Below, in pieces: positions 2,296-31,185 of a stretch of 64,000 nucleotides of DNA; within the stretch, counting starts at the first letter, position 1, and each line of letters starts with the position of its first letter. Made by a program: the position numbers and the translations under genes. The DNA lies in assembly GCF_003073045.1 (NCBI RefSeq), contig NC_037599.1, positions 25,396,695-25,460,694 of the forward strand. The letters run 5' to 3'. The notes below the pieces were generated by a model, which saw nothing but the letters and a program-made list of their open reading frames with translations, made no database searches and was not told the DNA's origin. The DNA comes from Pomacea canaliculata (Eukaryota > Mollusca > Gastropoda > Architaenioglossa > Ampullariidae).

Positions 2296-2509
2296 TTAAA
2301 ACCCATCTAATGCATCAGCCAGTCTTTGACACATATTTTTGATTTCTTCATTGGTCATGTATTCTGAAGCTAGGATAGCATTTGCCACAGCAATGGTCTC
2401 TTTGTTGGATCGGGCCTTTACCCACACTCGGCCATTCATTCCTACAGCTGCCTCAAAAGGAATCTTGTTTCCCAAACACTTCATCAAGACACAGTCGGCA
2501 TTAAGAATC
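2296..2509 (-). CDS. EXOSC3: EXOSC3 coding exon 4 (terminal)
   Basis: Acceptor TCTGCAG, then G to complete the lysine codon, then 70 codons and TAA. It carries the KH domain with the Rrp40 GxNG motif ([10 protein letters not shown]) and ends LADALDGF. Confidence 0.95.
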
Positions 2510-5500
2510 CTGCAGAAAATGAAGAAGATAACTATCAGCATTCACTTAGAAGGCCATCGAAATCACACAAAGAAATATTTGTGCGAGCCCAGGTGCTCCA
2601 TCAGCATGGACTGTGTACAGTCTGTATTCTTATCAATATATTTCGTGAGGGAATTTTTTCAAACTGGTCTTATTGCGCTTTAAATGAATGAAAAAAAAAA
2701 ACCCAGCCTATTCTCTTTTAATAAAATGGTGTAATCATTATCCCCATTAAAAGTGAAGGTCGCTTTCTGGTGCCTTTTACCTTCTCTAATAAATTAGGTA
2801 CCTATTCTTGCTGGATGGAAAGTGAACAAGCTTTCTAGTCACAGTCCTGTGTAAACTTCAGACCATGACCTTAAATTACATATTTGAGCAGAGTAACCAT
2901 CACATTACATATCTGAACACAGTAACCACCCCATTATATATCTGAACACAGTAACCATATTACATATGTGTAGAGCCTCCACCTCATTCTACTTTAATTA
3001 AATTGTGAAAATTATCTTCACATGTTTATGCTTTAATTGGATTCAGTTTTACTTATTATGAAACTGCATAAATTATTTTATGTTCTGCGCTTTCAGTATC
3101 GGTTTGGTTTACTGAAAAGATATGTGACATTGTCAGAATTTAATTCTGCCTCTTTTCTCATTAAAAAAAAAAGGAAAAAAAAAAACCACCATAGTTTCAC
3201 TTCTCACTTGTACATACTTCCTGACTAGGCTGAGTGATGTCCTCACAAGAAAGCCACCATTACGAATGACACCCATTCCACTGCTTCGGCCCTGACCATC
3301 AATACAGACAACCTCAGGCTCCATATCCTTGTTGGCTACCAGCAACCGACAGTAAACAATGTCACCTACCTGAGGAAGATGGATAAAACTTGAACCATTA
3401 GTGTAAGTCAAAACACATATTGTACAGATATTAATGCAACAAATAAGACAAATTAGTCCAGGATAAATACGCACTAAATGTCTTAATACTGTTAGCACAA
3501 TATGAAAATGGCAGGTTGACTCAAGAACAGCAATACCTGACTTTGTGACTTTTGCAGCCAGTAATTCATTTGCAATGTGATACAAATATTAGCACTGTCC
3601 CAAAAACATTATTGCTGTTAATTATTTTATAGATACCTTTACATCTGGGCGGTTTCGTTTGGTTGCACCCTCAAAGGAAAGAAAAGACAAGCTTGCTTGC
3701 TCACTTCCACCAATGTCTACCCGAAAAGTATCACCAACTTTTTGTGTAATGATGCCAATCACTGTTTCTCCTTTAACTGGAACATACTAGACATGGAAGA
3801 AACATTAGAAACCCATTTTGGTTTAACTGTATGTGTGAGACAGAGAAACCAAGAGAGACTTGGTTCCATAAATGCCACTGATTTCAGCATTATGACATGG
3901 GGAAGATTCAAGAATAATGTTAACAAAGCAAAGCAGAATATAGAAACCAACATGTAATAATGAACATTTTTGTTCCGTTTGAATCCAGAAATACATCTGT
4001 GACCATCAGGCATAAAAAATTTATGCATGACCTTTATGCAGTTATGCTCTAACTGAAGTACAGTTTTCTTTCTAAATGCAGACATAAAAACACATCTCTT
4101 GTGCAATCATATAATTATTCAAGCCATTATTTGCTTATTCTTATATCAACAATAGCCTAATGCACAGCTTTGCACAATTAGAACTGGAAATGTTTTGCCC
4201 TAATTTTACTAGCTTCAGCTATGCGTTTTGCTACAGCGATAATACCTTCATTCCTTAGTAGTGTCAGTACCTCCTCTGCTCTCTTTGTTAGGTGTTTAGA
4301 AAAACTACATTTTTCCTGAATTATGATCCATTCTACTATGACAAAATACTGACTTTTTCTTGAATAAACTTCATTCATTCAGTCAATGAAATGATACCCC
4401 AAGCATATTTCGGAACTTCTATTTGTCCAAAAATGCAAAATTACTTAAGTGCCTACAAAAAATAGTAGAATAAAAAATGCTAGTGATGATTTTTCTAACT
4501 GAAGGAGTTTTTAGTGTTTGGCTCTTTCCATGTGACTACATACAGCATCTATACCCATGCTGGAAAATTTCCCTTCCTTGCCATTGAGTACAATGAGTAT
4601 CCATTGGCCTGCTAAGAGAAAGCAGTGCAGTGTAATCTGAGAATTTGACAAGATATTGATCCTTGTGGTTACTGGGACAGCTGTCGGTATATAGAATAAA
4701 CAGAAATTTGTAGAACTTATGCACACAGAATAAGCAGAAGCAGGGATAAAACACAGCCTTAGGGTAAGCTGGTGCACACTGTACAAGAGAAAGCTCGTCA
4801 AAGAATATTCTAGTTAGGTTATGTGGTTGTATGGTGTCGAAAGCCAATGAGAAGTCAGCAAACAACAGTTGTTCATGGGAATAAGGATTCTCCAGGTGTT
4901 TGAACAGAGTATGGATGATAAGCAGTTTGGCATCATCAACACTTCATTTGGTATGCAAACTGCAGGGGAAGTCAATATATTTATTAGTAATCTGAAGCGT
5001 TCTTCGGAACTGGGACAACGGCTGACAATTTTCAAGCAGCAGGGATTGCGTGAGAATCCATAAAGCGCTGAAATAGGTGTTGGAAATGCCTCCAAATTAA
5101 TGCGTGCGGAAACGTAATGTTCTGCCACAAATACCATCTGGACATGGAACCTTGCGTATGTGTACTTGGAACAGCTATAGAACTTGTTCTGTTAAAAAAC
5201 CCTCTGGACAGGATGAAGAGAATGTCATCTTTAATCCTCGCAGAAGTCACGAGTCTCGAAACAAACAATCAGAGATGTTATGACAAAGAAAAGGGGTTAT
5301 TGTACAAGTATTTAACTATGTTTGTCATTGTTCTAGATAAATATTAACATTTAAATTCTATAAAACAAAACTTTAAACATAAAATTTTGCTTATACTTTG
5401 GCTTACACGCGTTTGATGAGAATCCACCCAATATACATTTGGCTCACGAAATCTTAGAATCCCTGATTTAGCAACGCAAATATCTTCATCTTCTAGTCTC

Positions 5501-5637
5501 AGTCCAGGTCCCAAAATTATTTTACTGCTGTCTGCACAGTTCTTCAAAGCATTTATTTTCTCTCCTGGCATCACAACTCTTCTGGCTAACTGTTTTGTCT
5601 CCATGTTTGATGTTGAGCTAAAGCCAGCAAACCACAT
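2296..5637 (-). CDS. EXOSC3: Exosome complex component RRP40 (EXOSC3), four coding exons
   Basis: Non-catalytic cap subunit of the RNA exosome, which binds RNA with S1 and KH domains and guides substrates into the barrel for 3'-to-5' decay and rRNA maturation in nucleus and cytoplasm. The coding exons on the minus strand are 5407-5637, 3637-3786, 3218-3369 and 2296-2509. All phases agree and every junction is GT-AG. The product is 248 residues; human is 275, with a longer N-terminus. Family landmarks in order: [55 protein letters not shown], and the KH signature [10 protein letters not shown] (residues 201-210). The start is the first ATG after an in-frame TAA four codons upstream. The promoter side faces SLF1. 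The gene appears intact; assignment rests on recognised family sequence, not on a search. Confidence 0.95.
2880..2975. repeat. short tandem repeat, ~31 bp x 3
   Basis: Three imperfect copies of an ATTACATATCTGAACACAGT-type unit in EXOSC3 intron 3. No function is suggested. Confidence 0.6.
3218..3369 (-). CDS. EXOSC3: EXOSC3 coding exon 3
   Basis: 50 codons plus two bases. Acceptor CCTCAG, donor GTATGT; the split lysine codon (AA|G) joins exon 4 in frame. It contains [20 protein letters not shown] and [15 protein letters not shown], the end of the S1 domain and the start of the KH domain. Confidence 0.94.
3637..3786 (-). CDS. EXOSC3: EXOSC3 coding exon 2
   Basis: 50 codons, phase 0 to phase 0, acceptor CTAG and donor GTATCT. 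It encodes the S1 domain core: [19 protein letters not shown], then [20 protein letters not shown] and [10 protein letters not shown]. Confidence 0.95.
4505..4600 (-). mobile_element. hAT-type BED zinc-finger remnant
   Basis: The minus strand reads [24 protein letters not shown] in part (SMGIDA...H...H). This is the second half of the BED-like finger found at the N-terminus of hAT transposases (typically C..C...F...NMG..AL..H...K.H). The same family is present on the plus strand at 26640-26825 (GKEGKLSNMGIDA). Only a fragment is left, in EXOSC3 intron 1. Confidence 0.45.
4615..5290 (-). mobile_element. CR1/Rex1-like LINE reverse transcriptase fragment
   Basis: The minus strand encodes pieces of a non-LTR reverse transcriptase: [18 protein letters not shown], then [17 protein letters not shown], then [20 protein letters not shown]. 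These correspond to the DFSSAFNTI and LVKFSDDTALL blocks of Jockey-superfamily (CR1/Rex1/L2) elements. Several frame changes and stops are present, so it is dead. It lies in EXOSC3 intron 1 in the gene's own orientation. Confidence 0.75.
5407..5637 (-). CDS. EXOSC3: EXOSC3 coding exon 1
   Basis: 77 codons from [10 protein letters not shown] to VDSHQTR, ending in phase 0 at donor GTAAGC (5401-5406). It holds the N-terminal domain with RRVVMPGE and [15 protein letters not shown]. The first ~27 codons and upstream DNA recur as a decayed copy at 10766-11009. Confidence 0.93.
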
Positions 5638-5759
5638 GACGATTAGTTAATAGAAAATAACCATGTTACCTTTCTAGTTCTTTTGCTTTCTTATGTATAC
5701 ATATCTCATAGATATAAGCAATAACAAAAACAACAACAAAAGCCTCAAAAACACTTTAT

Positions 5760-6260
5760 GAACACACTATTCTCATATGGCCAATTAGAGGGTTAATCTA
5801 GAACTAATGAATGAACCGGAAGCATCACAACTATAAGTTGTTTGCATTTAAAAAAATAAAAAATAATACATATAAAAAACTACGAAAACATATATGTCTT
5901 GCCTGTCAGTAAATATCATTTATATTCTACAGTTTTATTTTCTCCAAATCATTGTTTCGTCGTACAGGCAGTGCACATTTTGTATTGACACAAGAGGATG
6001 TGCCCGCGGGAGCGCGGTATTTGACTGACGAGTAATTTATTCTGCACGATGCAGAATTTCACTAATTTGATAACTACAAATGTAGTTTGAAATTTGACAG
6101 ATTATTTATTGCAGTTCTATGGCACGTATGTAAAAGCTTTTTGTATAGCGCGGCTCACCTGCTAAAGCTTTGCTCACTGCGCACTACAACACAAAGTACA
6201 AAAGAAACGCATATCCTCTCATTGCGTGTTAACGAAGACTGTCGGAACGCTGGAGGAAAT
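5760..6260. promoter_or_regulatory. candidate divergent promoter region, EXOSC3/SLF1
   Basis: The two start codons are divergent (5637 minus, 6963 plus). The interval contains an ETS-type ACCGGAAGC at 5815-5823, 178 bases upstream of the EXOSC3 ATG, and a CCAAT motif at 5781. A GC-rich patch (CCGCGGGAGCGCGG) lies near 6004-6017 in otherwise AT-rich DNA. The placement is inferred; no transcription start can be seen directly. Confidence 0.4.
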
Positions 6261-6962
6261 CTTTAAAGACCAAGATGTTGACCTCGTACTAACAAAATCT
6301 ACTTGTCGTAAAGGTGTTTCTTCCATGGCAAACGCAGAAAAGATCGTATATATATTTATATAGCAAGTATCAAGTATATAAAATTTATCAATTATACATA
6401 CATAAAATACATAAGTTTGATAAGAGAAAGGATTCCATACATTAATTATTCTAATAGTTCATGTACCTTGGAGCTTTCAAACACTGGCATTTTGGAAGAA
6501 ATGCATTACATTCCATTTGCGATGACAGCTTGATTTGGTGGAGAGGTGCTCACATCCATTGCCACTGTGTGTGCACCTGTTTTATACATCTGTGCTTTAT
6601 TATTCTAAAATATAAAAATACAATGAAAATTGTCTCCATGCAAAACATAGTTCATAGAAGAAAACTTGGGCATCAAGAACTATTAACAAGAATTATGAAT
6701 TTTCAAAAAATGATAGATTACAAGGGTATTGTAGTGGATGCTGAAGATAATGTCCATGTTTGCCATTGTTCAGACTGTATGTGATTCTTATTTTCTGTAT
6801 TGTGAACTGCTGTACTGTAAGCTGAGTAAATGGATGTTAACATAAAAATTATAAATTAATGGAAAATATATAGTTTGGTATGTAGACTGATTACATTATG
6901 TCCTGGTTCATGATGTGCTGTACTGGCAGACTAAGGAACATACTGCCGAGAATCATCTTGCA

Positions 6963-7091
6963 ATGCTGCCACAACGACAAACCCGCCGAAGTGCATCTAG
7001 GGTATTTCTGATATCAGGGATTCCTGAAACAGAAAGAGAAGAGCTAGGACAAATGATACAGAAACTTGGGGCTGTATATTTGAAAACGGAT
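6963..7091 (+). CDS. SLF1: SLF1 exon 1 (start, BRCT1)
   Basis: 43 codons starting MLPQRQTRRSASRVFLISGI, donor GTAAGT, phase 0. The ATG is the first in this frame after the stop at 6888. A possible acceptor (TACTGGCAG) just upstream suggests a noncoding first exon further 5'. Confidence 0.82.
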
Positions 7092-10000
7092 GTAAGTTCT
7101 GTCTTGGTCTTGTTATTAATTGTTACTGTTTTAACTTAAATCTTGGATTGGTGTAAAACTTCCTAAACTTTTATTATTTGTCTAATTAGTCATGGTAATA
7201 AACTCATCTCTTGACAACATATATAGCAATAATGTCTCACACAGGAACTAAAGAATTCAAATTCAACTAAGGAAAAGCACAAGTGACTTGCCACAAAACT
7301 GAGAAGTGAATTGCCTTAAAGGAGTGATAATGACATCAACAAATAATAGTGATTTGTTAAAAAGATGTGAACAGTTTATATAATGAACCACTCATTATCC
7401 ATTACTGCATTCAGTGAACAGCTCAGATCTGACTGAATAAACAGTCTTGCTCCAGTAATTAAAATTAAGCTACCATATGCATGCAGAAAGCATTACAATA
7501 TCTTAAGAAATGCATGTAGTTCAGTTTGCCAAGTAATATCTTAAGTAGAACAAGGTTAATAGAATAGCATCAAATCCGTTTTGCCAGAAGTCAATCAGAA
7601 TATTGTACAAGCATCATAGAAGTCTTGATCACTACACAATATAAAATTCTATTTTGGGGATGTTCTGGATCAGTAGTACCAGCAGGTTTAACCATTACAG
7701 GGAAAGGGATGTGGGTGTGACATGTTCACAGACCAAAGTCATTATTCTCTGTTTGCAGGTCTTCACTAACAATGCCACTCACGTGGTTTGTAGAAAACTG
7801 ACTCGGTCTGAAAAATTCCTAGGAGCAGTAGCTCTTGGTAATGACCTTGAAATATTGTGAATATATGCACAAAAGTTTTGTATGTGTGCGCGCATGTTTA
7901 TACATATGTGCATGTGTGCTGTCTTTGCACAATAATTCATGTATGCACATTTGTTTGAAGAAATTTTATGTATATATATATATTTTGGTACATTTTCCTT
8001 TTATAAGTTCTTTCATAATTTCTTTGACTGCAGTTGTGTTGCATAACTTGAGTGACTGCAAATCTTGTGCATGTGGATGACCATTGCTAAAATGTAGTTG
8101 CTTTTCAGGCAGGTGGGTGGTGAAGCCAGAGTATATTGGAGACTCTTTCCTGGCCAAGAAATGGCTAGATGAAGCTGATTATGAATGGAGTGAAGATAAT
8201 ACCGAGTTGTCCTCCTTACTGGCAGCTGCTGCACAAAGGGGACGCAGGCGGGCAGAGATGTCAGCAGAGAAAATCTTTGCAGGGTGGCAAGTTGCTGTGG
8301 TACTGGGGGATCATAAAAGACAAAATGTATACAAAAGGTGAAGAGCTACTCTTTGTGCATTTCATTTGACATAGTTACAGTTGACCCAGTCTTTAGACCA
8401 TTCTGCTGTTAGGTATGTTAAAGGTCAAACTAGCTGTAACTAACGAATTGGAAGAGTTTTACCAACAATTAGATGGTGAAGGACCTCCTTGTACTCGTTG
8501 GCTACAATGCCAAGGTCCGCTCAGATGCCTGCCAGGAACAGGCAGGAACGGTGGGCAAGTTGGGCCTTGGCAAAACCAATGACAGGGGTATCAGACCCCT
8601 AGAATTTGCGTAGAGCTAGAGACTCACTTTAGCTAACACCTTACACTCCCACAAAAAAATCAAAGATGGCCACATGGCACACCAGAGGGGTTGATCCAAT
8701 CAACTATATCATGCTGCCAAGACGCTTCCAATTCAGCATCAACAAGGCCAAATCAAGGACATACCCAGGCGCTAACATAGCGACCATGACCTTGTTCTAA
8801 TGAAACTGAAAGCGAAACGACTCAAACACATCCTGCTTTGATTTAGAAAAGTTTAAGGACCCAGACACAGCAGAAGTCTTCAAATCCACAATGTCAACAG
8901 CCCAGGAGATTCTAGGGCAACATATAAATACGAAACAGCCATGGGTTGCGAATGACCCCTCCCTATAAAGTCATACTGAAAGTCATACAGAATCACCACA
9001 GGAGCTAGCAGCAGAACAGGCTGGCTTCAGACCATACAGCAGCACAGTTGAGCAGATCTTCAACTATCGCATTCTTATAGAAAAGCATTTTCAGCATCAG
9101 TGGGACCTCTACCACAACTGCATTGACTTTAAAAAGGCATTTGACAGAGTCTGGCACGTCTGGCAGAGTCTGGCATGTGATGCAAAAATTCAAGTTCGAA
9201 AAAGGTCTTGTTAAGTCAAAGTGCTGTACAACAGCTCAATGAGTACAGTACTGCTGAACAACCAAATAAGAGCTTACTTTCGAACCACATGCGTGCATCA
9301 AGGATGTCTTCTATCTGTGGTGCTGTTTAATATCTTCTTAAAGAACATCATGCTCGAAATCCTCAATGACTTTCATGCTTCCATCTTAATTGAAGGAAGG
9401 CAGATCTGCAACTTACGGTTTGCAGATGACATAGACCTGCTAGCAGGCACTAACAAAGGACTGCAAGACTTCACCGACAGACTGACAGACTGCTCAAATG
9501 CATATGGAATGGAAACCAGCACTGAAAAGAGAATGGTCAATGGCAGTGGCAAAGGAGAGATCTCTATGAACAGCAGAGGTAAGCAGCTTCAAGTACATAC
9601 TTGGGAGCCACCCTAACCAAAGACAACAGCTCCATGTCAGATATCCGCATCAGGATCATGACAGCAACAGCGTCAATGGCTATACTACAAAGGATCTGCC
9701 ATAGCCATAACATAAGGTTCACTACGAAGTGCAAGCTGTACAAATCTCTGGTAGTGCCGATCCTGTTCTATCGATGAGACTCATGGACTCTGCTTTTTGA
9801 TACAAAGAGGAGAATCCAGGCATTGGAGAATGAGTGCCTGAGGAGGCTGTTCATGACTGCTCAGTATGAAACTAGATTGCCACACTCGTAGGACACCGGG
9901 AGCCTCTACTTTCAACAGTCAAGCGATGTAAGCTGGTCTTTGGCCACCTGACCCAGCATGACACCTTGTCAAAGACTGTCCTTCAAGGCACCTTGGAGGG

Positions 10001-13000
10001 TAGTTGATGCCGCGGTGGTCAGAGGAAGAACTGACTTACGAAGGTCAAAGACTGGACTGGTCGTCCTGTACAGGACCTGTTGACTATCACCTACAGTAGC
10101 ATATATTTTAGTAAAAGGTCAAAATCTTGAGCTTGCTTATGAAAGTGCAGTTTGCTGTCCATAATAGTGCATAGTAAAAATGAAGTGAACTATAATATCT
10201 TATCCAGAGTAGTGCATTCTAACAACAAAATGAACTATAGGATTGCCAGGGATGGCAAGGGATGAGAAAAAGGGAAAGATGTATGATAGTGAGGGTGCTA
10301 CTCTTATGTATGGGAACTGAAATCTATTATTAAAAAGTCACTCCAGACAAAACTGTTGTTTTTGTAACATCCTGGTATGTTGTTACCAGTAGATAAAGTA
10401 TTTGTCTTACATTGATAAATCCTGTATTGATGATTTTTGTTATTATACAATGTATTCCTACATTCTTGTAGGGTTGTGAAGGTATGTAGATACAGATGTC
10501 TGGTGACCCCAGTTTCAATGTAGGGCTGTGTAGATAGATCGGTACAGATGTTGGGCAATCCCAGTTTAGCTGTAGCCTGTTTTTTGTCTCTCTCCAGCAC
10601 CACATTTTTTGTTTCTTCCAAGTACCACTAATGCAACACATCCATTTGGGTTACACACATCCACAAGTATGCCCATGTGTGAAATGGTATGCATTGCGGT
10701 GACGTGACTAGAGTGGCCACTGAACTTGACCAGTGCTATTTATCAAGGCTGCAGTGTCTGGGGCTATTTTTGTCTCCTGGCATCACAACTCTTCTTACTG
10801 GATGTTTTGTCTCCATGCTTGATGTTGAACTAAAGCCAGCAAACCAATTGAAGATTTTAATATGAAATAACTGCTACCTTAATTCATTTGCTTTTTTATA
10901 TATATCTCACATACATACAAAAGAAAGAAACACTTTATGAACACACTGTTTTCATGTGGGCAACTAGGAGGTTAATCTAAAAGCTAATGAAAGAAACAGA
11001 AACATTATCTGTAGTTTTGTTTGAAATAATTATAGATATGAAGCTAGCGGAAGACAAACAGGATCACGTAACAATAGAAGAGGGAAATATAAAACTACTG
11101 GAAGACCAAAGTGGCCATGTAACAATAGAAGAAGAAGGGTGGAGAGGATCTGCAAGGTTCAGTGGGGGAGGGGTGAACATCACTTTTCTAGATTCGTCTG
11201 TTCAGGCAGGCTCTGAGTGATAGTCAAACTGCGGAGAGTTTCTTTACCCGATTTTTCTTACCAGGACAGTAATCCATGAACTATAGCCTACAGCAATCGC
11301 CATGAGACCACCAGCACAATAACCCAGAAAGAGATCATGAAATGGTTATAGGAGGCATTGAAAAAATTCAAGGTGTCCCTGCCATTGACCACAATGCCAA
11401 CACACACATGTATGTGTGAAATTAGTTTTCTTTTGAATTGACACTGGAGAAGTGTCCATTCACAACTGTGTGTGTACACTCAATTATGTAATTGCTGGTA
11501 TTAAATGTTGTAATTGTGTGGTTATATTACACTTCTGCTGCATTAACATTTCTGTTTGTTACACTTTTGAAAATGAAAAGCCTACCACCGAACCAGAACT
11601 AAATATTTTTGTCTGCAGACTACTTGCATATGGGGGTGCCAAGGTCTTCACCTTGAAACTTCCAGCCACCAACCCAGAAGCTGAATCAGAGAAACTTACC
11701 TACCTCTTCACAGACCCATCCAAAGCACAGCTAGCATGTGATCTGCAGAAATGTGGTGTTATGTGCCTCAACGTTGACTTCCTCAGTGACTTTCTCATTC
11801 TTGTAAGTTTATATGAACAAAATTGCAAAAAAGAGGTCAATTTTAAAACAGGTGAGTATGAGCAACAAGGAACATGTTAAAATATCATGTTTTAGAGGGA
11901 GGAAGCAGATAGCTGTGTGGTTGCAGCAAGGGTGTTCAAACTGAGAGGCAGCATACAGCACGCAGCACACTAGCTGATTTGATACCTGTGTCATGCAGCA
12001 TGTCTCCCCAGTTGATGCAGATATGGAGTTAGTATCTGACTACATAGAGGGTTGGAGAAGCTAGCACTTTATTTAACTTGAGTGTAATATTTTGTTGTTT
12101 TGTATATAATAGTAATAGTTGTAAAGTGTATAAACACACAATACTTATCAACAATAGAAGCAGAAGTTCAAAAAAAAAAAATTCCAAAGCAAATGCACTG
12201 TAAAAATTCATTATTGTTATTATCGGTCTATTAAACATTTTGAGACTTAGCATTTTATCATAAATTATGCCTGTTTATTTGAAACTAAATTTGCATTTGA
12301 TTCGGTATTTTAAAGAGGTAGATACAGCACACTTATACAGACGTGTGTATATTCATCATTTCAATTCAAAATAATGGAATATGCTGTTCTGTAGGATCCA
12401 CCACCAGATCCCTTGAACTACACTTTATTGAGTTTGGATGGCATCCCCTCAACTCCAGCTTTGGCCAGAACTTCCTGTGACCTCCCTAAAGGTCTTAGCA
12501 GAGTTGCTTCCCTGCAGAAGCAGCATGAAACGCTTTCTTTCTCACAGGTTGGTAGCTGTGTCACAGCATCACAATGTGACAAGTCTGCTACTATCTCACC
12601 GCTCCTGTCCCAGCATCACAATCTAACTGGTCTGCTACTGTCTCACCGCGTGAGGCTAGCAATTATCACCTGTTGCAATCTTCTCCATGCTTGGTGAGCA
12701 CAAAAAAAGATTGTTCTTCAGTTTTGGTTCCATTTGTTTGGTCATTTTATCGTTTGGCGGAGATTACTTAGAAAATAGTCTAATAGCATGTTATCTGTAT
12801 AAGTGATCATTTTTAAATATTTCAATTAATGATTACTATTTTCAAAGTTTTTACTGCTCGCTTGTACAAATGCTGTATTCCTGCAGCTTTGTGCCTCATT
12901 TCCAGTTGGTGGTGACTATATGAGGAAGTGATTAAAAAAATTATAATTTATTGTTAATTACTAGGCAGTGGGCAGTAAAAAGGATGGCAGACTTATTTTA

Positions 13001-16000
13001 TTCAGCGCATTGCTGGGTCGTTTAAAACTCTTGGGACTGGAATGGATGGGATGTAAAGAAATATATTAACCTACACATATGCATAAAGTGTATTTCTACA
13101 ACTTAATAATACTTTTTAACATGTTTAAGCACTAACAGTTACTAAAAATAATACTTTTGAACATATGCACTAAGAATAACTATAGGCTAACACTTGAGCA
13201 CCAAGACTACTACTTAAATTATTCTTATTTTTTTATAAAGTTTTGTTGCCAGGTGGCCTTGACAGATATTGTCATGCCTCCATCTTTCACTGCCACAGCT
13301 ACTAACTCCTTAGCTGCTATAACCAAACGCTTCTTACAGAAAAATTATATGAGGATTTCACATCAGGTACACTACGCCTAGGTTATAAAAGCATCGCTGT
13401 AGTACATGACACTTAGATTATAAAAATATTACAGTAGTACATTGCTCTATCCTTAATAGCATAAACTTTTTCGTTTCTGACATCATCACTACTCTTTGTA
13501 TACATTATTGTTTTTATTACAAAGAGCCTGGCCACATGCTAGGATTCTACTCTTTGTAGTCATCATTATCACTACTAATGTGTATGCATCATTGTTTTTA
13601 TTATAGAGATTTTAAAGAAGGAAAATTTTTTTCAATCTTTGCTTATCAAAGAAAAATCAAGAAACCAAGATTGGAGCTGAGATAGTCCAAAGCACAGGAA
13701 GTTTGACAACAACACCAGTGCTAGCTTCTCAAAGATCAATTCGAGATTGGTTTGGACGTCAAGACAAGGAGAATGACTGCGCAAAGGGAGGTAAGGTTAT
13801 TTGCTCTAAAATGATCCTTTTTTTATTTCTTGTAAAAATAAAAAGCACCTTTGATGAATGCAAAGTAAGAACATTCATCGGAAAGACAAATCTTGAACAA
13901 AATTGTGACAGTCAGATTCCAGTTTGTTTATATGAAACAGAAACAAATGATTGTTGCTGGTACAAGAAGACTGCAATATTCTCCACAGCACAGCATTGTG
14001 ACAGAAATGCAGGGAAGAGGGATGGACTAAATATCCCCAGGGGAAAGCAGGCACACTGCTGGCTAGTCTCACACCCGCCTACCTCCCTTTTACGCCCACT
14101 TGCCCGATTTCGCACATCCACATGCTCACACACAGGTAACTACTTCCATTTGCATGTACAAACAACAACTAACAGTACAGTTGTACAAACAATATCAAAT
14201 AATTTTTCGACAAAAGAGGTTAGCATAACAGGGCTTCTGCTAAGGTTAAATTCTTTGGGGTCCCAGGGACCCCTTCTTCAGATTTTTAAGGGGTCCCTGT
14301 TCTTCGGCCAAATTTGAAGGGGACCCCATTGACGAAAACTGAAGGGGTCCTCCAAACTTTTAATGCGTACTGTACGCAATTTTTTGTGTAAGCAGAAGCC
14401 CTGGCATAAAATCAGATACATAATGTAGAGTGACGATTATTAAAAGTTGACAATGTCATAAATATTTACACATGCGCCTGGACCTGGGCCAAAAGTTCAC
14501 AGTTCTCAGAATTCTCCTTGTACATCACTGGGATGTGTTCAGCTCAGGCTCTCGCTGAAAATGGCAGTGCCACTCAGCTATCTCCCCCTTGGTGCTCATA
14601 GACGGACAGTGAACACACCATTATCACCACTATTACAACTGCTGACTCCTTCTTTCATTGATGGTTGCCTGCCGTTGAACAATTGCCCCAGGCAATGGAC
14701 GACAGCGGTGGGTGATTATCCAAACAGAAGTGGTGATCTGTTAGCTGCACACAACACCAAGCTGAACTGGTGGCACGGTGGGATTTACCAGCCGCTGCCT
14801 CACACCTCTTGCTGCTGGTAACACACTTGTCTCATTCGTTTATTTTCTGGGAGAATCAGCCTCTTGCTTGCACTACTCTCTTTCTTTGCATAACTCAGAC
14901 TGCAAGTGTTAGCAGGTGGTGGCGTACTTTCTGGCAATTAATTTTCCCAGGGCACTGGGATGGTTCTAGAGGGCCGGACTAATATAGTTAACTCAGATAC
15001 TGTATATATAGAGCGGGTGAGGCCCAGGTCTGTTCTAAGAGAATGGACCCCTCTCCAGTCCTGCTGCTTACAGTTGTAAAATCACTCAGAGACTATTGTC
15101 CTCTGCTGGAGAACGAGGAAAGGCACTTAAAACAAATTTATCCTAAACTATATACCCATCTAAACACATGACAAGGGCAGCTTTAAAATCACGGTAAAAA
15201 ATGGCAAAAAATGCGGTGAATTAGCCCCCACTTTCTCTCCATCGTCTTAAACTCATGCTATCCTATGTCTGTCTTTAAAAAGCTCATCCTGGAAACCCTG
15301 CGTACCATGCTGTTTTCAGACCTCATCATGCTGCCCTATGTGCCATTCGTACCAAGGAACAAAAGCCATTATCACTCCTCACCTACAAGCTGCCAGAGTA
15401 GATATTCAACAGGTAGAGCCTCTCTCTCTACTACCAGCTCCTCCTTGGACCCTTCCTGTTCCAGAGATTCGCCTTGATCTTACAGCTTTTGAAAAGGGGG
15501 ACACTAGTGATCCCATCTAGCTCCAACATTTTCATGAAATCATTTCTGACTATCCTGGATTCTGTTCTGTATTTACAGATGGCTCAAGTGGTGGCCCAGT
15601 CACTGCGGCAGCAGTTCTGTCCTGCCAACCGCAACGGGCTGCTTCAATCCGACTGGTGGATGGATGTTCTATTTTCACGGCGGAACTTCACGTCATCGTG
15701 CTTGCCTTGCAGCATGCTCACCGCTCTTTGGAGCACAACTTTTTGATTATTTCAGACTCTCTTTCTGCACTCCAAGCTCTCCTTTCAAATTATTTTGACC
15801 ACCCTCTTGTGATCAAGATTCATAAAATTCATGCAGCACTCATTCAACGAAACAAGGACATTGTTTTTATTTGGTCTCCTGGCCATGCTGGTATCCCAGG
15901 CAATGTTCGGGCAGACCAGGCTGCCAAGGCTGCATGTCAGTCCCCTGGCAAATTACAGACACTTGTTTCATCAAACTGTAAACCTTTCTTCTCGGCCTAC

Positions 16001-19000
16001 GTTCAGTCCTTATGGCAACGCCACTGGGTCACTCTAGGCCAAAATAAATTTTACGCCACTCTTCCCTGTCTTTCTGACCGCCTACCTTCATGCCATCCTG
16101 AGAAGCAGGAGGAGGTGGTCCTTGCTAGACTAAAGTTAGGACACACCTATGGTGACACGAGGTGAACCACCACCTCTTTGCCCATGGTGTAGGGGAAATT
16201 TTAATGTGGTACATATTTTGATTGTTTGTCCTTAGCTGCAGATTATCCGATGACAGTTTTTTTACAGAAAACTCTTTGTTTTCTTTGTTCAGGTCCGTCC
16301 CATTGGCAGCAGTCTTTACATTTTTAAGGAGGATAGGACTTTATCATCAAATGAAATTTTATGTCCTGATAATTGTTTTTCTTTTGATTCTTGGTCTGTT
16401 GGTGGCCTTTTTGGGCTTCACTTCTCCATTTTACGCTTTACCCAATCTTTTACATATTGATTACTTATTGTGTTGATTTTTTAAAGAATGTTATGGTTGT
16501 ATTACTTGGAAGGGTTTTTTTTTTCCCCTAAACTTTTAAAGTTAAGATTACTTTTGTCGCCGTGATATAGCCTTGGCTGCTGGCACAGCATTAAAAACAA
16601 ACAAACAAACATCCTTCGTTTTCTACACTAGGTTCACATCCGTTCTGGCATCTAGTACAAACTGTCCATGCTGTCTTTTAATTTCTTTGCTGGCACCTGC
16701 CTTTATTATTTCTCTGAACTGCTCTTCTCTTACGTCCCAGCTACACAACTCCACTCCTTGTCTGATGACCAGAAGAACAATATATGGCCACAGGATGTTT
16801 AGTTATGGTGCAGCGAAACAATGGAACCCTCTCCTTTATACAAGAGCATTTTCTTACTACTATCTGCTCTACCAGTGCAGGTGGGAAGTAATCTGCAAAT
16901 GCACAATAAAATCCGAGGCTGGAAGCAAGAGGGCTGAGTTTGCATATGCACTGCTGTTAGTTTGGCTCTGGTGTGGTTTGTTTTCTTTTGTCTCATAAAT
17001 CCTCTGTAAGAACAATCTGATGAATATAAGGTTCCTCTGTGGTGTAATTCCTGCAGGCACTTGTTAGATTCTACAAATATTCATGCATGCATATGGGAAC
17101 AGGAGCATTTATTACAATAATGTTTTATGCTTCAATAACCTGAACTACAAATGCACTAAAAAAAGTTGTTGTGCAGAGTGCTTCAGACGTAGTGCAGTGG
17201 TGACTTGTCATGTGTCAAGAAATCTCTTGTCAGATAGGTCATCTGGTGGTGCAACAGTTAGTGCCTGTCACCAATACAGTGTCCTGGGTTTAGCTCTTGT
17301 CTTGAGCAAGCTGCTTTTCACTGCATGTGGCATCTGTTTACAGGGCTGGCTGCTTTGCTGTGATATAGCCTTAGTTGCTGGCTCAGCATAAAACACCAAT
17401 TCCCACACACACACAACCCTCTTCTTGGTGTAAGCAGATAGGCAGGTGATTAGAGCATACTGGTTCAATGACTGATTAGAACAGCAAACTTCCCCCAGTC
17501 AACCCAGCTGGCGGGAATGACTCCTTAGAGGGTTGGGGAAGGTAAGGCAACGAGGGAGAGATGGCCACCACCCTCATGTAAAAGACTGGCCCTGAGAAAA
17601 GTGAGGTCTCTAACACCTCACCCCTCAACAACCTGAAAAGGCTAGGGGATGACCGTTACCTTTTTTTTACCTCTTCTTGACAGATGAGGGTTGAGATAAG
17701 TGGAGATAGGAGATGTCTTAATATTTTACTTATCTGTTTTCTCATCTGTTTGGGTTGGTCCTGTTACGTTGGATTAAATTTTTGATTTCTGTATGGAATA
17801 ATTTTTATGCTTTTGTTCTGTTTCAGTTCATTGTCAAGATAGACCAACAACGAGACAGTTATCTAAAAATATAGATGTAGACCCAGCCCAGGTCATGAAC
17901 AGCAGGACTGGGAAAAATCTCAAGCATACAGGCGGAGTTGACAAACAGTTGCATGAAGTTCCTAAGAAAAAACTTAAATTAGAAGCATGCTTTTCGCCTC
18001 CAGTCAAAATCACAAAATTCCTAAAGAAAAAAACAGTCTCGACTGACCAAGAAAATCACAGTTTAAGAAAGTGCAGTTCAGAAGTTGAGGGAGTTTCAAC
18101 ATGGGAACTTATGCAGTCAACTTATGTTGCACTGATGACAAGAAATATTAAACATCTTGATAAGTTGTCCCAGAATGAGAAAACAAAGCCGATTTCAAAG
18201 GAGTCTCATAAATCTGGTGGTGAACCTGTAGTGCATATGGTAGAGAAAAAGACACAAAGTTGAGAGGAAAACCTGTAGAGATGCCTTCTACAAGGGTTTT
18301 GCAAGTTAGCCATCAGAGTGATGTCAGCTTCCATCAGGTGAGTGGTGTCATACAAAACCAAAAGAGACGCAGCATTCCCACAGAACGAATGACCTTATTT
18401 ATGTCAGCTGTACAGTCGAAGAAAAAGAGAAATGGTTGTGGAGGTAAAAAACGGTCAAGCAAATCAATCTTTTGTAGAGATGTGCCAGAGAAATCTGTCA
18501 TTGCTCATCAACAGGAAGAGTGTCAGCAGGGTCTCCAAGGTGACTCCAAGGTAACAGAAGGTTGTCAAAAAGCTGCTGATGGTCTGCACCTGTCACAGAT
18601 GGTTTCAGAAGGTAGGACTAGACAGAAAGTAAAGCTTAAGGGATGAGTTTTATCAAGAGCATTTAGACTTGATAGCAACCAGAAGTAACAGGCATGGAGA
18701 GCTGAAGGATAAGAATCTTATAAGGCAGGCTGATTTGAAGTCTGATGATAAAGTGAATGAAAAGAGTTGTGTAAATATTCAGGTTGATAATGAGCTGCTG
18801 GGTTCTCAAGATGGCTTGACTGCTGGTACAGCCCACAAAAGTCCAGACACTGTCCACAGTACTGACAACGAGTCAGAGAAGTTCTTAGTGGAACTTCCTC
18901 GAAAGACATCTAGGAAAAAAAACTTCTCACAGAGATCTATAGTTACTGAAATCTCGGGGTCTGCAAAATTAAGATCTTTCCAGTCCAGCAGTGACAGTAT

Positions 19001-22000
19001 TAATAAAAACATATCTAGCGTCAGAAAGCGGGTGCTGACATCTCGAATGGCAGGATTTATGCAGAACCTGCAAGATAGAAAGGTGTCCAAGTCAATGATG
19101 CATGAAGTGGAGAAGCCAGACAGTGACTTGACAGTTCAAGCTGCTCTTGCAAGAGGTGCAGAAAATGGAAGAGTGATCCAATCATGCACTTTACACTGTG
19201 AAAGTCAGAATCTTGATTTGCCTGTAGACAAAAATGACTTCTTAAAGGTATCCACTAATGGCCTGATGGATGTAGTGAACACAAATGGACCAAATGACAT
19301 GGTCAACATCGATAAACATGGAGATCTGAAGTCAAACAGCATCCTGATCACAATGTGCGGTGAATGCTCAGATCTGAAGGAGAGTTTCACTGCATCTGTA
19401 CCTCTCATATCCCGATTGAGGCCAGTGGAAGATCGTCTGCTGCAGACTGCTGCCTATGGAGCAAGCTCACAGTTTGAGCCGAGTACTTGCTCTCAGTCTG
19501 CTCGTGGTGGAGCTGCTATTTGTAACAAAAACCGATGGAATCAGTCTAGCCAGCAGATATTTGTAAGACCTCGATGGCATTTCTTGCACTCACCTATAGA
19601 AGGAGTTGTGTTAATGAATGACAGGGCCAAGTGGTCCTTGAAGGATCCTGATGTTGTGCATCAGAATACATTGACATCCCTCAACTTTCTGCTGACCAGC
19701 AGCTTAGAGGAGGGATGTTACAATACTACCATTGCCACTGCACACTTGCTGACATCACAGTGCCCATCGGAGCAGATGATTTGGTGTCTAGTGAGCATAT
19801 TAAAGGTGAGACTTTCAGTAGATGAATGTTAATGTGCATAGAGACTTGTAAAGCCACATAGACACTAGTTGACGCATGACCTCGACAGAAACATACATGT
19901 ATAGTAAAATTAACATTTCTGAAAGTTTGACCTCCATCTATAATCTAAATTTTTCATTGTATAGTTTGTTGCTGCAGTCAACATAAAAACACCTGACAAT
20001 TTTTTTTAACTGCAATATTGTTTGGGCAGGATCATTTCCTTGCTTAAGTTTCTTAAATTATTTGGAGTGTGATCTTGACATTCAAAATCACCTAGATGCG
20101 CGTGAAATTCACAAACATAAATAAATTAATTATAAATAAAATGAGCAAAAATAAAAATTTGTAATTAAATTTAAAGTTTAAAATTTGCAGAAATTATTTT
20201 GATGCTGTTTAGTGTAATGGTTGTACATGTTGATATGTAAAGCTTGATGTGCTGGCTCTTTGTATTATGCCATTTCAATATAGTAATGACACAATAGTGT
20301 AATGTAATGATATGCTGCTTGTATTATGTGAAGTGCATTTCCCTTACGACCCAGCTAAACAACTCCCCTCCTTCTCTAATGATTGTCTTCTTACTCTTCT
20401 TGTCATTAGAACAACAGCATATGGCCACAGGATGTTTAGTTATTGTGCAGCGAAACCCGCCACCTACCCACTATTGAATCCTTTACACGTGCACTGTAAA
20501 CACACCTCTTCTGTAAACATGACTCTTAACAACCTTTGTCACACCCTTTCTTCTGCAATATCGTGTTACTCTCAGCTCTTGTTCTTGTTATTTGGTTCCT
20601 CTTTGTGTTTTCTGTATTTGACTTAATTCTTCGTTTAGTACGGTTGTTTATTCTGTTATAGCTCATATGTTATTTGTTTGTTTTCCTGTCCCTCGTATGC
20701 TGTCCATGTTTCGTTCTTGTTCTTAAGCACTAAGAGCTTGCTCCTTAGGAGTGTGAGTAGGAGCTTTACAAATTTTGCATTTATTGCTATTAATGGTTAT
20801 ATTGATCCTGATGTTTGTATTATGATGTTTAGTGTAATGGTTGTACATATTGTGCTGTTAGTATTATAATATTCAATGTAATATCAATGTGTGAAGCTTA
20901 ATGACCTGCCTGTTTGTAACAGGAAGCTAAAGAGGAGAGTACATTGAATGCAGCTTACTCTTTGCTTATGACGTGGCTGAAGCAACATCCTCCTATTGAT
21001 TCCGACATCAGGATTTTGTATGAAAAAGGACTCAAGCTGTATGACTGGGATTCTGTTCAAGAAATAATAGAGTAAGTTGTCGCAGATGTTGATAGTGTGT
21101 TTGTTGAAACATAGAATATTGAGTATGTGGTGATAGATAAAGTTTCAACAGATGAATGATCAAGAATATGTAGCATATGTAGGTGATGGCTGCTGTATTG
21201 TCATTCTTTTTTTATCCCTTATGAAGTCTTCAGACCACCTCACTGTGATATCAGTCATGTTTCACTTGCTGTGTTATCAAATGGGTCATGTCAAAGGTCA
21301 TACCCAGTATGTATCTGATGTACCAGTAGTACCAGTATACAGTCAGCCGTCCCTTGACCTGTGGTTGGGGGGATCACATGGATAGACACGACAGCTGACA
21401 GGGCCGCCACTCTTGCCTATTGTGGGCGAGAGTCAGCAGGTCCTGTACAGGACGACCTGTCCAGTCTTTGGTCTTCCTGTCTGTTCTTCCTCTGACCACC
21501 GCGGCGTCCACTACCCTCCAAGGTGCCTTGAAGGACAGTCTTCAGCAGGTTGTCGTGCTGGGTCACGTGATCAAAGAAGATCAGTCTGACTGTTGAAAGT
21601 AGAGGTTCTTGGTGTCCAGTGTGGCAGGCACTCAGGCACTTGTTCTTGAATGCACAAAGCATACAGAAGCAATAAAGATGGTCTTTGGTATATCTGCTAA
21701 GACAGAGATTCGTGGCTGTTGTTAATATTCAGGTGTCCAGCTTCTCAAACTGGATAATCATTTACCTAAGGTGGTGTCGCATCACTCTTAGACAATGGGA
21801 CCAAAGATAATCTAAAGGAAGAGGTTTGTTGTTTGTTTTATCAAATGCAGGCTGTCAGTAGATACAGCAGCAGGCGAGACTGAGCAGCTGCTGGCATCTT
21901 GGGGTGGGGCACGGCTGCATCTAAAATTCCTGCTGGCAACATTAGAATGCAACTTTCTGCACTTTCTACACAAGTAAGTACTGCCTGTGTTAGGTTTTAG

Positions 22001-25000
22001 TGCACATTTATTGTTATATAGGTATTTGCGTTATAACACCTATTGATTAAAAGAATTTCTGCACCGCATACCACAACATACCAATGTTACAGAGAAGCTG
22101 CTAACTATTGCACATTGTACTTTAGCATCAACAAGCAAGGGGCATGTAATTGCTTGCTCATCCGCTGCCTCTGGGCCCCTTCCTACCAGATCTGCTGCAA
22201 CCCTCGTATTCGAAGGCTTCTCACATTTCTACAGAGATCTCTTAAGGCCTTCAAATCAGCACAGGTGATGCAATAGTTACTAGTTTTATTTTCTTGTTTC
22301 TAGATTGTTTTGGCCAATATCTTCTGTGAATTATTATTATTAGAGGTTTTGTCTGAAGTATTCTGTGAGTTTTCTAAAATATTGTGGTTTTTTTTCTCAT
22401 TTCATTTAGGCATGCTGGGAGGAAATCCTAGGTTTACTTGCAATGGTGGCTCAGTGCTGCCATCTTGCAGACAATAACTGGCAGTGGGGGGAGGCCGTGT
22501 GCTCAGGAGGGGTTAGCACAACTTACTTCGTACAGGAGCTTGCAGCATCAGTCTCTGGTTTGTGAAAGGAATTTATCTTTTATTATTTTGTTTGTGAAAG
22601 GAATTTATCTTTTATTATTTTGTTTGTGAAAGGAATTTATCTTTTATTATTTTGTTTTGCAAGAAACTGAATTATTTTTCCAGTAACTGAATCATGTGCA
22701 TATGATGATTTCTACTGCAGTTTGTGACAGACAAATCCTTCAGCTGGTGTTGTCAAGAATCCCAGCGCCCTGGCTCCGGGGGCAGTTGTCAGCAGCCCTG
22801 CTGTCCAACTACGATGACTACCTTGTTCCTGGTGGCTTGTTGTCAGACCAGTGGTCACTGGCCAAAATTGTGAGTTTAGGTTTTGTTTTGTTCTTTTCAT
22901 GGAGATTGATATATTGAAATAGGTATTTAGCTTTTAAAACATTTTGTCAATCAAATAAAAATTGTTCACTATCTAACAATTGTTATTTGATACTATATTC
23001 CTGCACATGTCAAACTGCATGTTGACAGCCTCAGGACAGTGACAGTGCATGTAGACTGCTTCTTGGCTACATCACCTTCACAGCTCTGGGAGCATGGTTA
23101 CATGTTCATTACAGGATTGCATGTTCCCACATTACATGATACACTGTAGCACATACTGTAGGCTCTACAAGTTTGTGGCAGATCATCTGCCTGTAACCTT
23201 CAACTATATGGAGTGGATGAAAGATATTATCAGGAAAAAAAGATAGGTGAGTAGCTAGCTGAGAACAAAGATATTGGTCAGGACAGCAAATGTGGGTAAG
23301 TAACTGAAAACAAAGAAATAAGTTTGTGCTTGTGTTTGACATTGGACTCCCTTATTTAACAGGTTGTTTCTTGTTTGTAGGTGTCGCAGTTCTTTTATCT
23401 TCTGCCCAATATGAGTCACACCAGGCAAGTTATAGCTGTCTTTATTCTGTGTCTCTATCTATCTCAGACACTTAAGCATTGTGCTGAACAAAATCTCTTT
23501 AGTAGGATGTGTGAGTTCATGAGTGTGGAAGCATACATACACATACATGCATGTAATGATATTTTCTTTTGTAATACATTGTCATATTCTTCCATCTTCC
23601 ATTCTTCCATGCTTTAACCATGAGCATTTAGCAGTTAACTGCCTGGATAACAATAAGCGAAATTATAAGCAATCAATATGAGCAGAGAATATAGGTACCT
23701 TGTTCGTTTCTAGAGAGGAAAGAGAATCTGAGTCTCGTGTTCTGTGCTGTGTGATACCTTTTCTTTAAAGTATCTTGTTCATGTCTGCCTTGTTCTTACA
23801 CATCCCTTATCATAGCAAAGTGCTTTCTTATTTTTAGTGACAGTGAGTTCACCAGAAAAAAGACAGCAGAAACAGACATTGTGGATCCAGATGTATCAAC
23901 ATCATTGGCTGGCCAACGACTCACTGCAGACAGGATCAACAAAAGGAATCCAAAAGGCATGCGACTGTAAAGCCAGTGTTTAAATAAATTTCATGTGGGC
24001 TTTGGGCATAACAGTGGGCATTGTGCATTGTGATGTGGGGTGGCTTTGGGTTAGATGTGTGTTGTGGTGTGTTAGTTGGAATGGTTGGGTGTATGGTGGG
24101 TAGACTTTCAGTATATGTGTAAGTGTCAGTGACGAATCAATCAGTTGGATTATGTGTAAGCATTCATGACAAAGCTCAGAAATGGGATTGTATGATTGAT
24201 GATTATATTGCATCACAAGGGAGATCATGCTTATTGCCAGTAACCCATTTTATTGTGACTGGCAGGGGAGACATTGCTTCACCGAGCAGCCATCAAAAAT
24301 GATGTTGTCCTTCTGAAACAAATGTTATCAGTCCCAGGTACAACTTTCCTTGCTTGATCTGTAGTTACATATCTGCCATTTGCACAAGCCAAGCTGGGAA
24401 ACTGGTGTATAGGTCTACATTGCAGTGTTAAAGAGGCTTGTATCAGACATTTTTAGAGAGGTATATGTGACTGGCTTTGGAGTTTACTATAAAATGCATT
24501 TGTAGAACTATGTATATAGGACAGACTTCAAGGGATAGATTTGTAGGGTATATATGTATATAGGACAGACTTCAGTGGAGACATTATAAATGTACTTGAA
24601 GTCTGCCCTATATAATACATACTCTATAAATCTATCCCTTGAAGTCTGTCCTATATACATATATACTCTATAAATGTACTCCTTGAAGTCTGTTATATAT
24701 ATATAATAGTTTTGTATATAGGACAGACTTCAAGAAATACATTTATAGAGTTTTATATATAGGACAGAGTTCAAGGAGTACGTTTACAGAGAAGTAAATG
24801 TGACACAGAAGTACAAACTTGAGTGTTACACAGAATGTTGGTGGGGAGAACTAGGTGCTTGTCTGTGTAGCTGTCTGATATGTTGTGTGCAGCTCTGTAA
24901 GATATCTTGTGGCACACTATGGGTAGATCTCTGACAGCTTGTGGCATAGTTTGGGTAACTCTTTGTGACAGGATAGGAAAGTGTCAGAGACATCAAGGAT

Positions 25001-28000
25001 ATTAATTCTGTGTCTGTGGCAAGTGTTAGAAGCTGGACTAGGAAGTAAATGATTTAGCAACTAAAGTATTGGGCTTAGTGTCTGGGACGCTGGTAAGGGG
25101 ACTGAAGTCAGCTGTGGAAATTTAGTTTGGAGCATTTTGAAATCTGTTGCTTAGGTTTTTTGAAAAAATGAAATTTTCTTGAAAAATAAGCACACTTTAT
25201 TTCCTTGCAGGTGTAGATGTCAATGCCCAGGACAATGCTGGTTGGTCACCTTTACATGAAGCTTGTCATCATGGCAATGTGGAGTGCGTCAGAGCACTGC
25301 TTAAGTTTGTTCCTAAGAAGACTATTGACGCATATACTTCTGGTAATGTCTTTTCGGTTTTTTTTTGTTGTTTTTTTTTTTATAAAATCTGTTAACTGTC
25401 TCTAAAAGGATTTCTATAACTATCAGTATAAGTGGACGTCAGCCAGTTGTTGTCATTTGCACTGCAGTTCAGATTATCTTTCCAGGATTCTTTGTAGTGA
25501 TGCTGCACACATTCAAGAGGACCCTTACCTGGATGCACCAATGTTACTTAATAAATAGACTGGTGCTTTTCTATTTCACTCAAACTGAAACTAAATGGAA
25601 AGGTGATTGTCAGCTGCACCAAGGAGAAGGATAACAGCTGTTTGAAACATCAACAGTACAACATAAGACTACAATGCCAACAAAATAAAATACTGCAATC
25701 TAAAAAGAATACAAACTAAAATTATTCCTGAAAATTAATCATATTACAGGGACAAATGTCTTCGATGTTTCTAAAACAAAATATCAGTTCCGGCTTTTGT
25801 TCTTCCCAGGAGCAGGGAAATTGAAGCGTGTTGATATTCGAGCACTCAGTGAGGAGAAGATCACCCCTCTTCATGATGCTGTCCTGAAGAACCATGTCAG
25901 CGTTGTTACACTGCTTCTCCAATATGGAGGTGGGTATGTATCAGTCTGTGTGCATGTGTATGTGTGTGTGTGTGTGTGTGCAATGTATATGCTGTGTATG
26001 TGTTATACTGTCCTGAAAAACTATATCAGAACCAAAATGAGGCTCATATTTGACCCTTTGTTATACACACATCATTTGTGCCATGCTGGTGCATATCATT
26101 AGAGCCACATACCTGAACTTGTAATAGTCTTGAAGTTATTTCTAAAGGTCCCAAATCATCTTTTCTTGATCCGTTAATGGTTATTTTTGAAAGTTTCCAG
26201 TTTGAAATTTGGAACATGAACCATTTGCTTTTCCCTCTAACAGCAAGCATCTCTGTTCTTGGCAACGTGGCTAAAATTTTGTTGATTCTCTTAGACACAC
26301 AAGTGATTGTTGAAAATTTGATGAAATATCCTGGATGCCTTATTTAGCTTTATATATCTTGTTAGGGAGGAAATATTCTTAAAATTCAGCTCAAAATTCA
26401 ATGACTTCAAGTAAATTGAAATAAGTTTTGGGAAATATCATTTCAAAAATCATGACCTGTTATCTGGGTCCATAATATCTGCTGAAAATTGTTTATGCTA
26501 AATCTTTGAAGCATTATATTAAAATATTTTTAGATTTACTGTGCTTGTTCATTGTTCTGTATAAGCCAAAAATCAGCACATGGCTGCAGATTTTAGTGTC
26601 GCCGTTTGCACTGGCGTCATCATCCTCTTACAGTGTCAATAAAGGAACTTTTTTCAATGAGCTGTGGTTTACAGACGAAAAATACAACAATTTTTGGAAT
26701 GTTGTTCAAGAAAGAAAGAACGACAAAGCCAAATATAAATCTGATCTTTGTGGCAAGGAAGGGAAACTTTCAAACATGGGTATAGATGCCATGCATAAGG
26801 TAGCAGGCACAAAAGGCTCCTTTCACAAAAATCATCAGTGACAACTACTGCTAGCTTTTTTTTTTGATTATGCCAAAGTAATAGACAAATGCAAACTATT
26901 TAAATGTATAAAATTTGGTGCTTTCTTCTGAAATATGCTTGTGTGTGGACTGGATGAGTGAAGTCTATCCTGGAAAAAGTCGGAAAAGTCAGTATTTTGT
27001 TTTTGTCATAGCAGTACAGCCTATGTACTATGACCTACTAGAAACAAAGGGTTTTGCCGGTATTATAATTTACTAACAAAATCTTCTATTGCTATTCAAA
27101 TTGTAATGATGACACAAACAAAAAAACTGATTTAATGGACTATCGTTTTCTTCTGCATGTGACAACTAAGCTCTCAGGTCTTCATGAATGGATGCTACAA
27201 AGCTGGTGTTTAGTTTATTCCTTATTACTCCTCGAGCAGCATAAGGCCACATGAGGAATCTTCCCGACCAGGCCCCTGTTGTGGTACTGTTGCGGTTTCT
27301 GTAACATCTCTTTTTTACATGAGTGGGTTGTTAGCCCAAAGCAAAACCTCCAACCTAATGAGCCAGGGTGCAACATTTTAATTGGCCTCTACCCTGACAG
27401 GCTTGGTTGGCTTGGTTAGACCTGCTCTGTGGATCGACAAGGCACGCAAGTCACCACACCACTACAAGGTAAAAAGCTGGTGTGGCGGTGGTCCTTTCTT
27501 ATTCGCAGAGTTGGGTCCGAAGGTCTCAAGGTCTACCCCTTTTGGGGAGTCTTTTTCTGCTTCAAGTGACGTGGAACAAATGACGCACACAAGACATCAG
27601 ACACAAGACACCATTCACCAAAACAATACAAGACCTACCACAACTCACTACACTGACACTGTCTTGATGAGCATTCAAACCACTAGGCCTGTATGAAGGC
27701 TGTAGATGAGGGTCTGTCTCTCAAGCTGCTGGATGAGGTCAGTCATAGATCAGTCATTCAGTGAACTAATCTTCTCTGTATGATTTTGGAGGAGATCTTT
27801 ATCTTTCTGTATGTTGTGACATGTTGCTATATTTATCAGATATTTCTAGAGCATTTCTCTTCCTGTTTTTTTTTTTAAGGTAAAGTGGATTTATTAAAGT
27901 TGTATGCCTTTAGTTTTCTAGAAACACTCATTTCAGATGAAAATGAAATGAACTATTGAGGATAGTGTCTAATGTTGTGAATAAAGTGTTGTGTAAAGCC

Positions 28001-30733: not shown

Positions 30734-30739
30734 AGGCGG

Positions 30740-31185
30740 TTCACACCATACCGAGTATACAGAGATAGGTGTCTAAAAGGCATACTCAGCAGGCGACAAA
30801 GGCTGTCCTGACGTTCCAGTAGTCTGTCATCGCATGTTCAGTATAGTGGCCACAGAGTTAAATCCCTTGTTAGTGTAGAGCATTGAATACTGAGTATGTG
30901 GCGACAGACAACAGGAACACCGAGTATGCTGTCACCGACTACATCATATATTTTATACATAATATTACTAACCCTAACCCCATTGTTATATTATATACAT
31001 AATATTACTAACCCTAACCCATTATAATATTATATACATAATATTACTAACCCTAACCCTCTGGCCACTATACTGAGTATGCGGTGACAGACTACAGGAA
31101 CGTCAGGACAGCTTTTGTCGCATGCTGAGTATGCCTTTTAGACACCTATCTCTGTATACTCGGTATGGTGCCAACCGGGTGTGAA
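30740..31185. mobile_element. foldback element with telomere-like inner repeats
   Basis: Left arm 30740-30857 and right arm 31059-31185 are reverse complements over about 110 bases (ACCGAGTATACAGAGATAGG at the outer end). Between them are three ~45-bp units, each ending TACTAACCCTAACCC (near 30965-31055). No transposase is present. Outer TTCACACC blocks on both sides may extend the arms. It lies between SLF1 and ARFRP1. Confidence 0.8.

Follow-up and report, generated by a model that had tools for sequence, protein, structure and literature searches.

A short direct copy of the 5' region of EXOSC3 within an intron of its SLF1-like neighbour in Pomacea canaliculata

The 5' region of EXOSC3 in Pomacea canaliculata has a decayed copy in an intron of the divergent SLF1-like gene, and this pair was very probably produced by a single short local duplication, likely through template switching, after which the copy would have decayed without function. 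The analysis was carried out on a window of 64,000 bases (C10:25396695-25460694, contig NC_037599.1), and the genome searches covered 440,159,624 bases in 24 contigs. The features are listed in Table 1.

Table 1. Coordinates of the features within the window and the evidence for each
Feature	Position	Strand	Evidence
EXOSC3 gene, KH frame to first recognised coding frame	2296..5646	-	Pfam RRP40_S1, KH_6, Rrp40_N; PDB RRP40
Source: start of first recognised EXOSC3 (RRP40) coding exon and about 190 bases upstream of outer ATG	5556..5825	-	BLASTN, global alignment, Pfam, PDB
Inner ATG, preserved in copy	5602..5604	-	Alignment, codon comparison
Outer in-frame ATG, no start codon in copy	5635..5637	-	Alignment, codon comparison
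ETS-like CCGGAAG of source, lost in copy	5816..5822	+	Alignment, motif check
CpG-rich stretch between EXOSC3 and SLF1, likely the shared promoter, not copied	5950..6300	.	CpG observed/expected
SLF1-like gene with BRCT frames starting near 6.9 kb and ankyrin frames near 25.2 and 25.9 kb; 3' limit provisional	6891..26102	+	Pfam; PDB
Decayed copy in SLF1-like intron	10768..11005	-	BLASTN, global alignment, genome search

The source and the copy were homologous in a BLASTN comparison of the window with itself (E 2e-46), and the plus/plus match agreed with the same orientation given in the original prediction. Global alignment of the two showed that 204 of 237 aligned bases were identical, with 34 gap bases in 9 runs and a K80 distance of 0.156. 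The Smith-Waterman score was 272, while the scores of 500 dinucleotide shuffles averaged 27.5 and never exceeded 58. The pairing of 5556-5832 with 10766-11009 that had been predicted is thus true homology, far above the shuffles, and not a short chance similarity. Identity was 72/82 in the coding part, counted from the outer ATG, and 132/155 in the upstream part. All 9 gap runs were upstream, and none fell in the 82 coding bases. The gap-free coding stretch could be a hint of constraint, but it is also expected if the upstream DNA of the source also gained insertions and deletions. Beyond the ends of the pair, four of five flank comparisons were at the level of shuffled sequence (24 to 40 of 100 shuffles scored as high). 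The fifth covered 1500 bases past the upstream end, and its score of 55, compared with a shuffle mean of 39, was reached by 1 of 100 shuffles; the alignment behind this score was gappy, A+T-rich and at a different offset, and the match is taken as chance. The similarity between source and copy ends at both sides. At this K80 distance the pair would be too diverged for an artefact of haplotype assembly.

The self-comparison of the window at E 1e-4 gave 94 rows, and the matches listed were those 60 bases long or more that lay more than 300 bases apart, 32 in number. Besides the source/copy pair and tandem arrays, the matches listed contained two inverted pairs, 8988-9530/40598-41231 and 9878-10099/21417-21626. 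A 128-base pair was also seen at 16715/20329. The window further carries a long tandem array at 59766-62308, with about 44 copies of a 58-base unit, and an inverted repeat (30737-30860 / 31054-31177) with 124-base arms that are 92% complementary.

The identity of the two divergent genes was examined with Pfam and PDB searches. The three minus-strand open frames of EXOSC3 gave RRP40_S1 and KH_6 above the Pfam cut-offs, and in the first coding frame Rrp40_N scored 25.3 bits, just under its cut-off of 26.9. The first coding exon also matched RRP40 in the PDB (best E 0.00047). These matches uphold the view that the source is the 5' end of EXOSC3. On the plus strand, the BRCT domain in the first frame alone was below the Pfam cut-off, and Pfam gave nothing for the frames 8081-8341 and 11437-11880 searched singly. 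A query joined by hand from four plus-strand frames gave a BRCT match with E 1.3e-14 in Pfam, with BRCT_TopB1_SLF1 below cut-off, and its best PDB match was SLF1 (8ir2, E 2.9e-20), followed by TOPBP1 (1.2e-19). The ankyrin frames come after the BRCT frames, which we take to be the domain order of SLF1. The copy falls in the gap between the third recognised coding frame (8081-8341) and the fourth (11437-11880), and together with the best PDB match this position agrees with the predicted target, an SLF1 intron; the number of that intron would shift if the SLF1-like gene has 5' non-coding exons. Since EXOSC3 is the conserved gene, we infer that it was the source and that the SLF1 intron was the recipient. 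This intron also contains a reverse-transcriptase remnant (Pfam RVT_1) at 8969-9616. Its inverted partner lies some 31 kb further on, at 40598-41231, where the RVT_1 frame was above the Pfam cut-off.

The number of places of this sequence in the genome was determined by searching with both members of the pair. The search with 5500-5900 (E 0.001) found solely the two known places, and using the copy as the query (E up to 10) again gave two places only. These searches skip very common words, yet both known places were scored. A dispersed repeat or transposable element family, for which many copies are expected, was therefore rejected, and the pair is a local one, as the original prediction had supposed. 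The protein of the EXOSC3 exon had one place in the genome (E up to 0.01). The left-hand flank of the copy, 10270-10790, had 6 other genome matches, five at query positions 94-254 and one at 383-465. Older repeat remnants thus adjoin the copy on its left and are absent from the copy itself.

The state of the copied coding stretch differed in part from what had been predicted. The claim that about 27 codons were copied holds when they are counted from the outer ATG, but only about 16 codons follow from the inner ATG. Likewise, the start codon was said to have decayed, and the alignment showed that the outer ATG is lost but the inner one is kept. The predicted loss of the ETS site was confirmed, as CCGGAAG at 5816 is gone from the copy. 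The reading frame of the copy is open across all 27 codons from the outer ATG, and the copy breaks off before the remainder of the exon. In the coding part pN was 0.116 (7.5 nonsynonymous changes at 64.7 sites) and pS was 0.153 (2.5 synonymous changes at 16.3 sites). These small counts suggest no strong protein constraint and are about as expected for a neutral copy of a constrained gene. A neutral rate of 2-3e-9 per site per year was assumed. At this rate the K80 distance would be equivalent to about 26-39 million years, a figure that is only a guide. The split of Marisa and Pomacea, placed at about 33.7 Ma (PMC13336756), is near this rough age.

The most probable origin would be an event of break repair or replication in which the template was switched to a nearby site, as happens in microhomology-mediated templated insertion. 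A piece of about 270 bases from the 5' region of EXOSC3 would have been copied once, 5.2 kb away and in direct orientation, into the SLF1 intron, leaving out the remaining exon, the putative splice donor and the CpG-rich putative promoter core. The copy would then have drifted without function; neither the outer start codon nor the ETS-like site has survived in it. The repair mechanism and the absence of function are put forward here as probable. The donor has been kept, and the insert is surrounded by unrelated sequence: four of five flank tests were at shuffle level, and the genome search found no second place for the right-hand flank, 11000-11440. At the left edge, only a short T-rich tract is common to donor and copy. 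The copy is homologous to part of EXOSC3 only, as expected of a partial DNA-mediated gene duplicate. It also includes DNA upstream of the coding start, which may or may not be transcribed, and no A-tail is visible. Partial gene duplicates are described as frequent among young animal gene duplicates in a review (PMC3449122). The copy resembles the partial duplicates and gene-fragment pseudogenes described there in being a truncated, local and decaying copy of a conserved gene that lacks the full open frame, but it is very short (about 270 bases) and lies in the intron of a divergent neighbour. Templated insertions are reported to occur in human germlines (PMC8421209), and in the insertions linked there to microhomology-mediated break-induced replication, a short segment is likewise inserted elsewhere and the donor stays. 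However, the human insertions have junctions that can be resolved in sequencing reads, whereas the junctions here are old and their microhomology is not scorable. Literature listings on partial or copied-promoter duplications contained nothing on this locus, and within the library searched no paper mentions EXOSC3 together with Pomacea.

Two other origins were weighed against such a templated insertion. The copy might be the remnant of a larger tandem duplication of about 5.2 kb, which included the promoter common to both genes along with the first exons of SLF1, and of which the second copy was later mostly deleted. The direct orientation fits this origin, and so does the position of the copy, which starts where a unit of 5556-10767 would repeat; the 1500-base flank score, equalled by 1 of 100 shuffles only, also speaks for it. 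However, among the matches listed from the self-comparison (E 1e-4), neither SLF1 exons 1-3 nor the sequence from 5826 onward was matched after 11009, the 1500-base match is A+T-rich and at another offset, the stretch 11000-11440 is single in the genome, and two events, a duplication and a deletion, would be needed. We consider a larger duplication rather improbable. A retro-insertion of a 5' fragment of the EXOSC3 transcript could point to the reverse-transcriptase remnant at 8969-9616 in the same intron. However, no A-tail was seen in the sequence, and the two 30-base flanks share no exact match longer than 5 bases, a length reached by 49% of 2000 random pairs. A 5' fragment is moreover the wrong end for ordinary reverse transcription, and the probability of such a retro-insertion seems negligible.

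The original prediction held that the first exon of EXOSC3 had been duplicated together with its promoter. The start of the exon and DNA upstream of it were indeed copied, but the likelier promoter, the CpG-rich stretch at 5950-6300, was not. The CpG observed/expected ratio was 1.22 in this stretch, 1.29 in its left half (5950-6140) and highest, 1.39, at 6000-6249 (250-base windows), while the ratio of the copied source was 0.26 and the copy holds 0 CpG. The background ratio was 0.48 for the window and had a mean of 0.63 in 20 sampled stretches, and among 300-base windows, those containing 17 or more CpG with a ratio of 1 or higher made up 1.1% of those in the window and 3.6% of those in the sample. 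Since invertebrate methylation is mainly in gene bodies (PMC3985014), CpG richness in the gap separating two divergent genes is the better mark of a promoter, and the stretch is likely an unmethylated promoter shared by EXOSC3 and SLF1. This mark is weakened by the likeness of the right half to a dispersed element: a search with 5800-6300 matched three other places in the genome (on C3, C7 and C1) over 6141-6300 at 71-72%, the likeness extends over about 6141-6346 with 71-73% identity, and those three are alike among themselves. This right half may derive from an old dispersed element; Pfam searches of two frames within this region found no match. A minus-strand sequence like a splice donor, CAG|GTGAGC, occurs near 6158, inside the element-like part, and a non-coding first exon of EXOSC3 is possible there, in which case the copied upstream DNA would be intron or 5' UTR. 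A candidate splice acceptor at 5618 had a moderate score, and 24% of 1955 sites scored as high with the rough matrix used. An intron in the EXOSC3 5' UTR is a possibility.

Two readings that give the copy a role were also considered. In the first, the copied promoter would drive, or, as in the original prediction, could once have driven, minus-strand transcription across SLF1 intron 3. The copied source does hold an ETS-like site, the orientation fits, and half of the rival CpG-rich stretch resembles a dispersed element. However, the CpG-rich stretch was left out, and the copy has neither the ETS-like site nor a single CpG. The function of the copy as a promoter is a weak story of which no sign was found, and we judge it very improbable. 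In the second, a stretch of SLF1 intron 3 is antisense to the start of EXOSC3, so that small RNAs or double-stranded RNA could dampen, silence or edit EXOSC3 RNA. The predicted duplex energy was -260.5, whereas 30 mononucleotide shuffles averaged -70. The runs of exact complementarity measured 23, 20, 17 and 15 bases, and the longest of them lies inside the EXOSC3 coding start. However, such complementarity is automatic for any copy of this kind and is therefore no evidence of function, and the complementary stretch is intronic. In an Rfam search of 5400-11500 (E up to 1) no family matched the source or the copy; the sole match, at 7865-7931, was below the gathering score. An antisense-RNA role is unsupported, and we regard it as extremely improbable; if it were true, it would be an RNA circuit linking two divergent genes, one of which encodes an exosome subunit.

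The background rate of comparable pairs was estimated from 20 stretches, each 10 kb long and together covering 200 kb of the 440 Mb, chosen non-randomly at round coordinates in 5 contigs (C1-C4 and C7). Non-tandem self-matches at E 1e-10 were present in 6 of the 20, and one segment from each of five of these six was searched genome-wide; L019, which matches 3 other sequences of the sample, was left out. In L033 (C7 near 3.0 Mb), a non-tandem direct pair was found at 828-1278 / 3884-4185, and its segment 1091-1278 had 2 places in the genome (176 bits, 80% identity). The other segments had at least 41 matches listed (L036; 305 candidates, 40 scored), 27 places on a single contig (L023), 22 places on a single contig (L031), and 6 places (L020), of which 5 fell within about 23 kb. 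Comparable private local pairs therefore do not seem to be rare, at 1 in 20 stretches with a wide margin, and as a local partial duplication the copy of EXOSC3 in the SLF1 intron is of an ordinary kind. It illustrates cleanly how a short gene piece can be copied over a few kilobases into the intron of a neighbour, and it warns against taking every copy of the DNA ahead of a start codon for a copied promoter.
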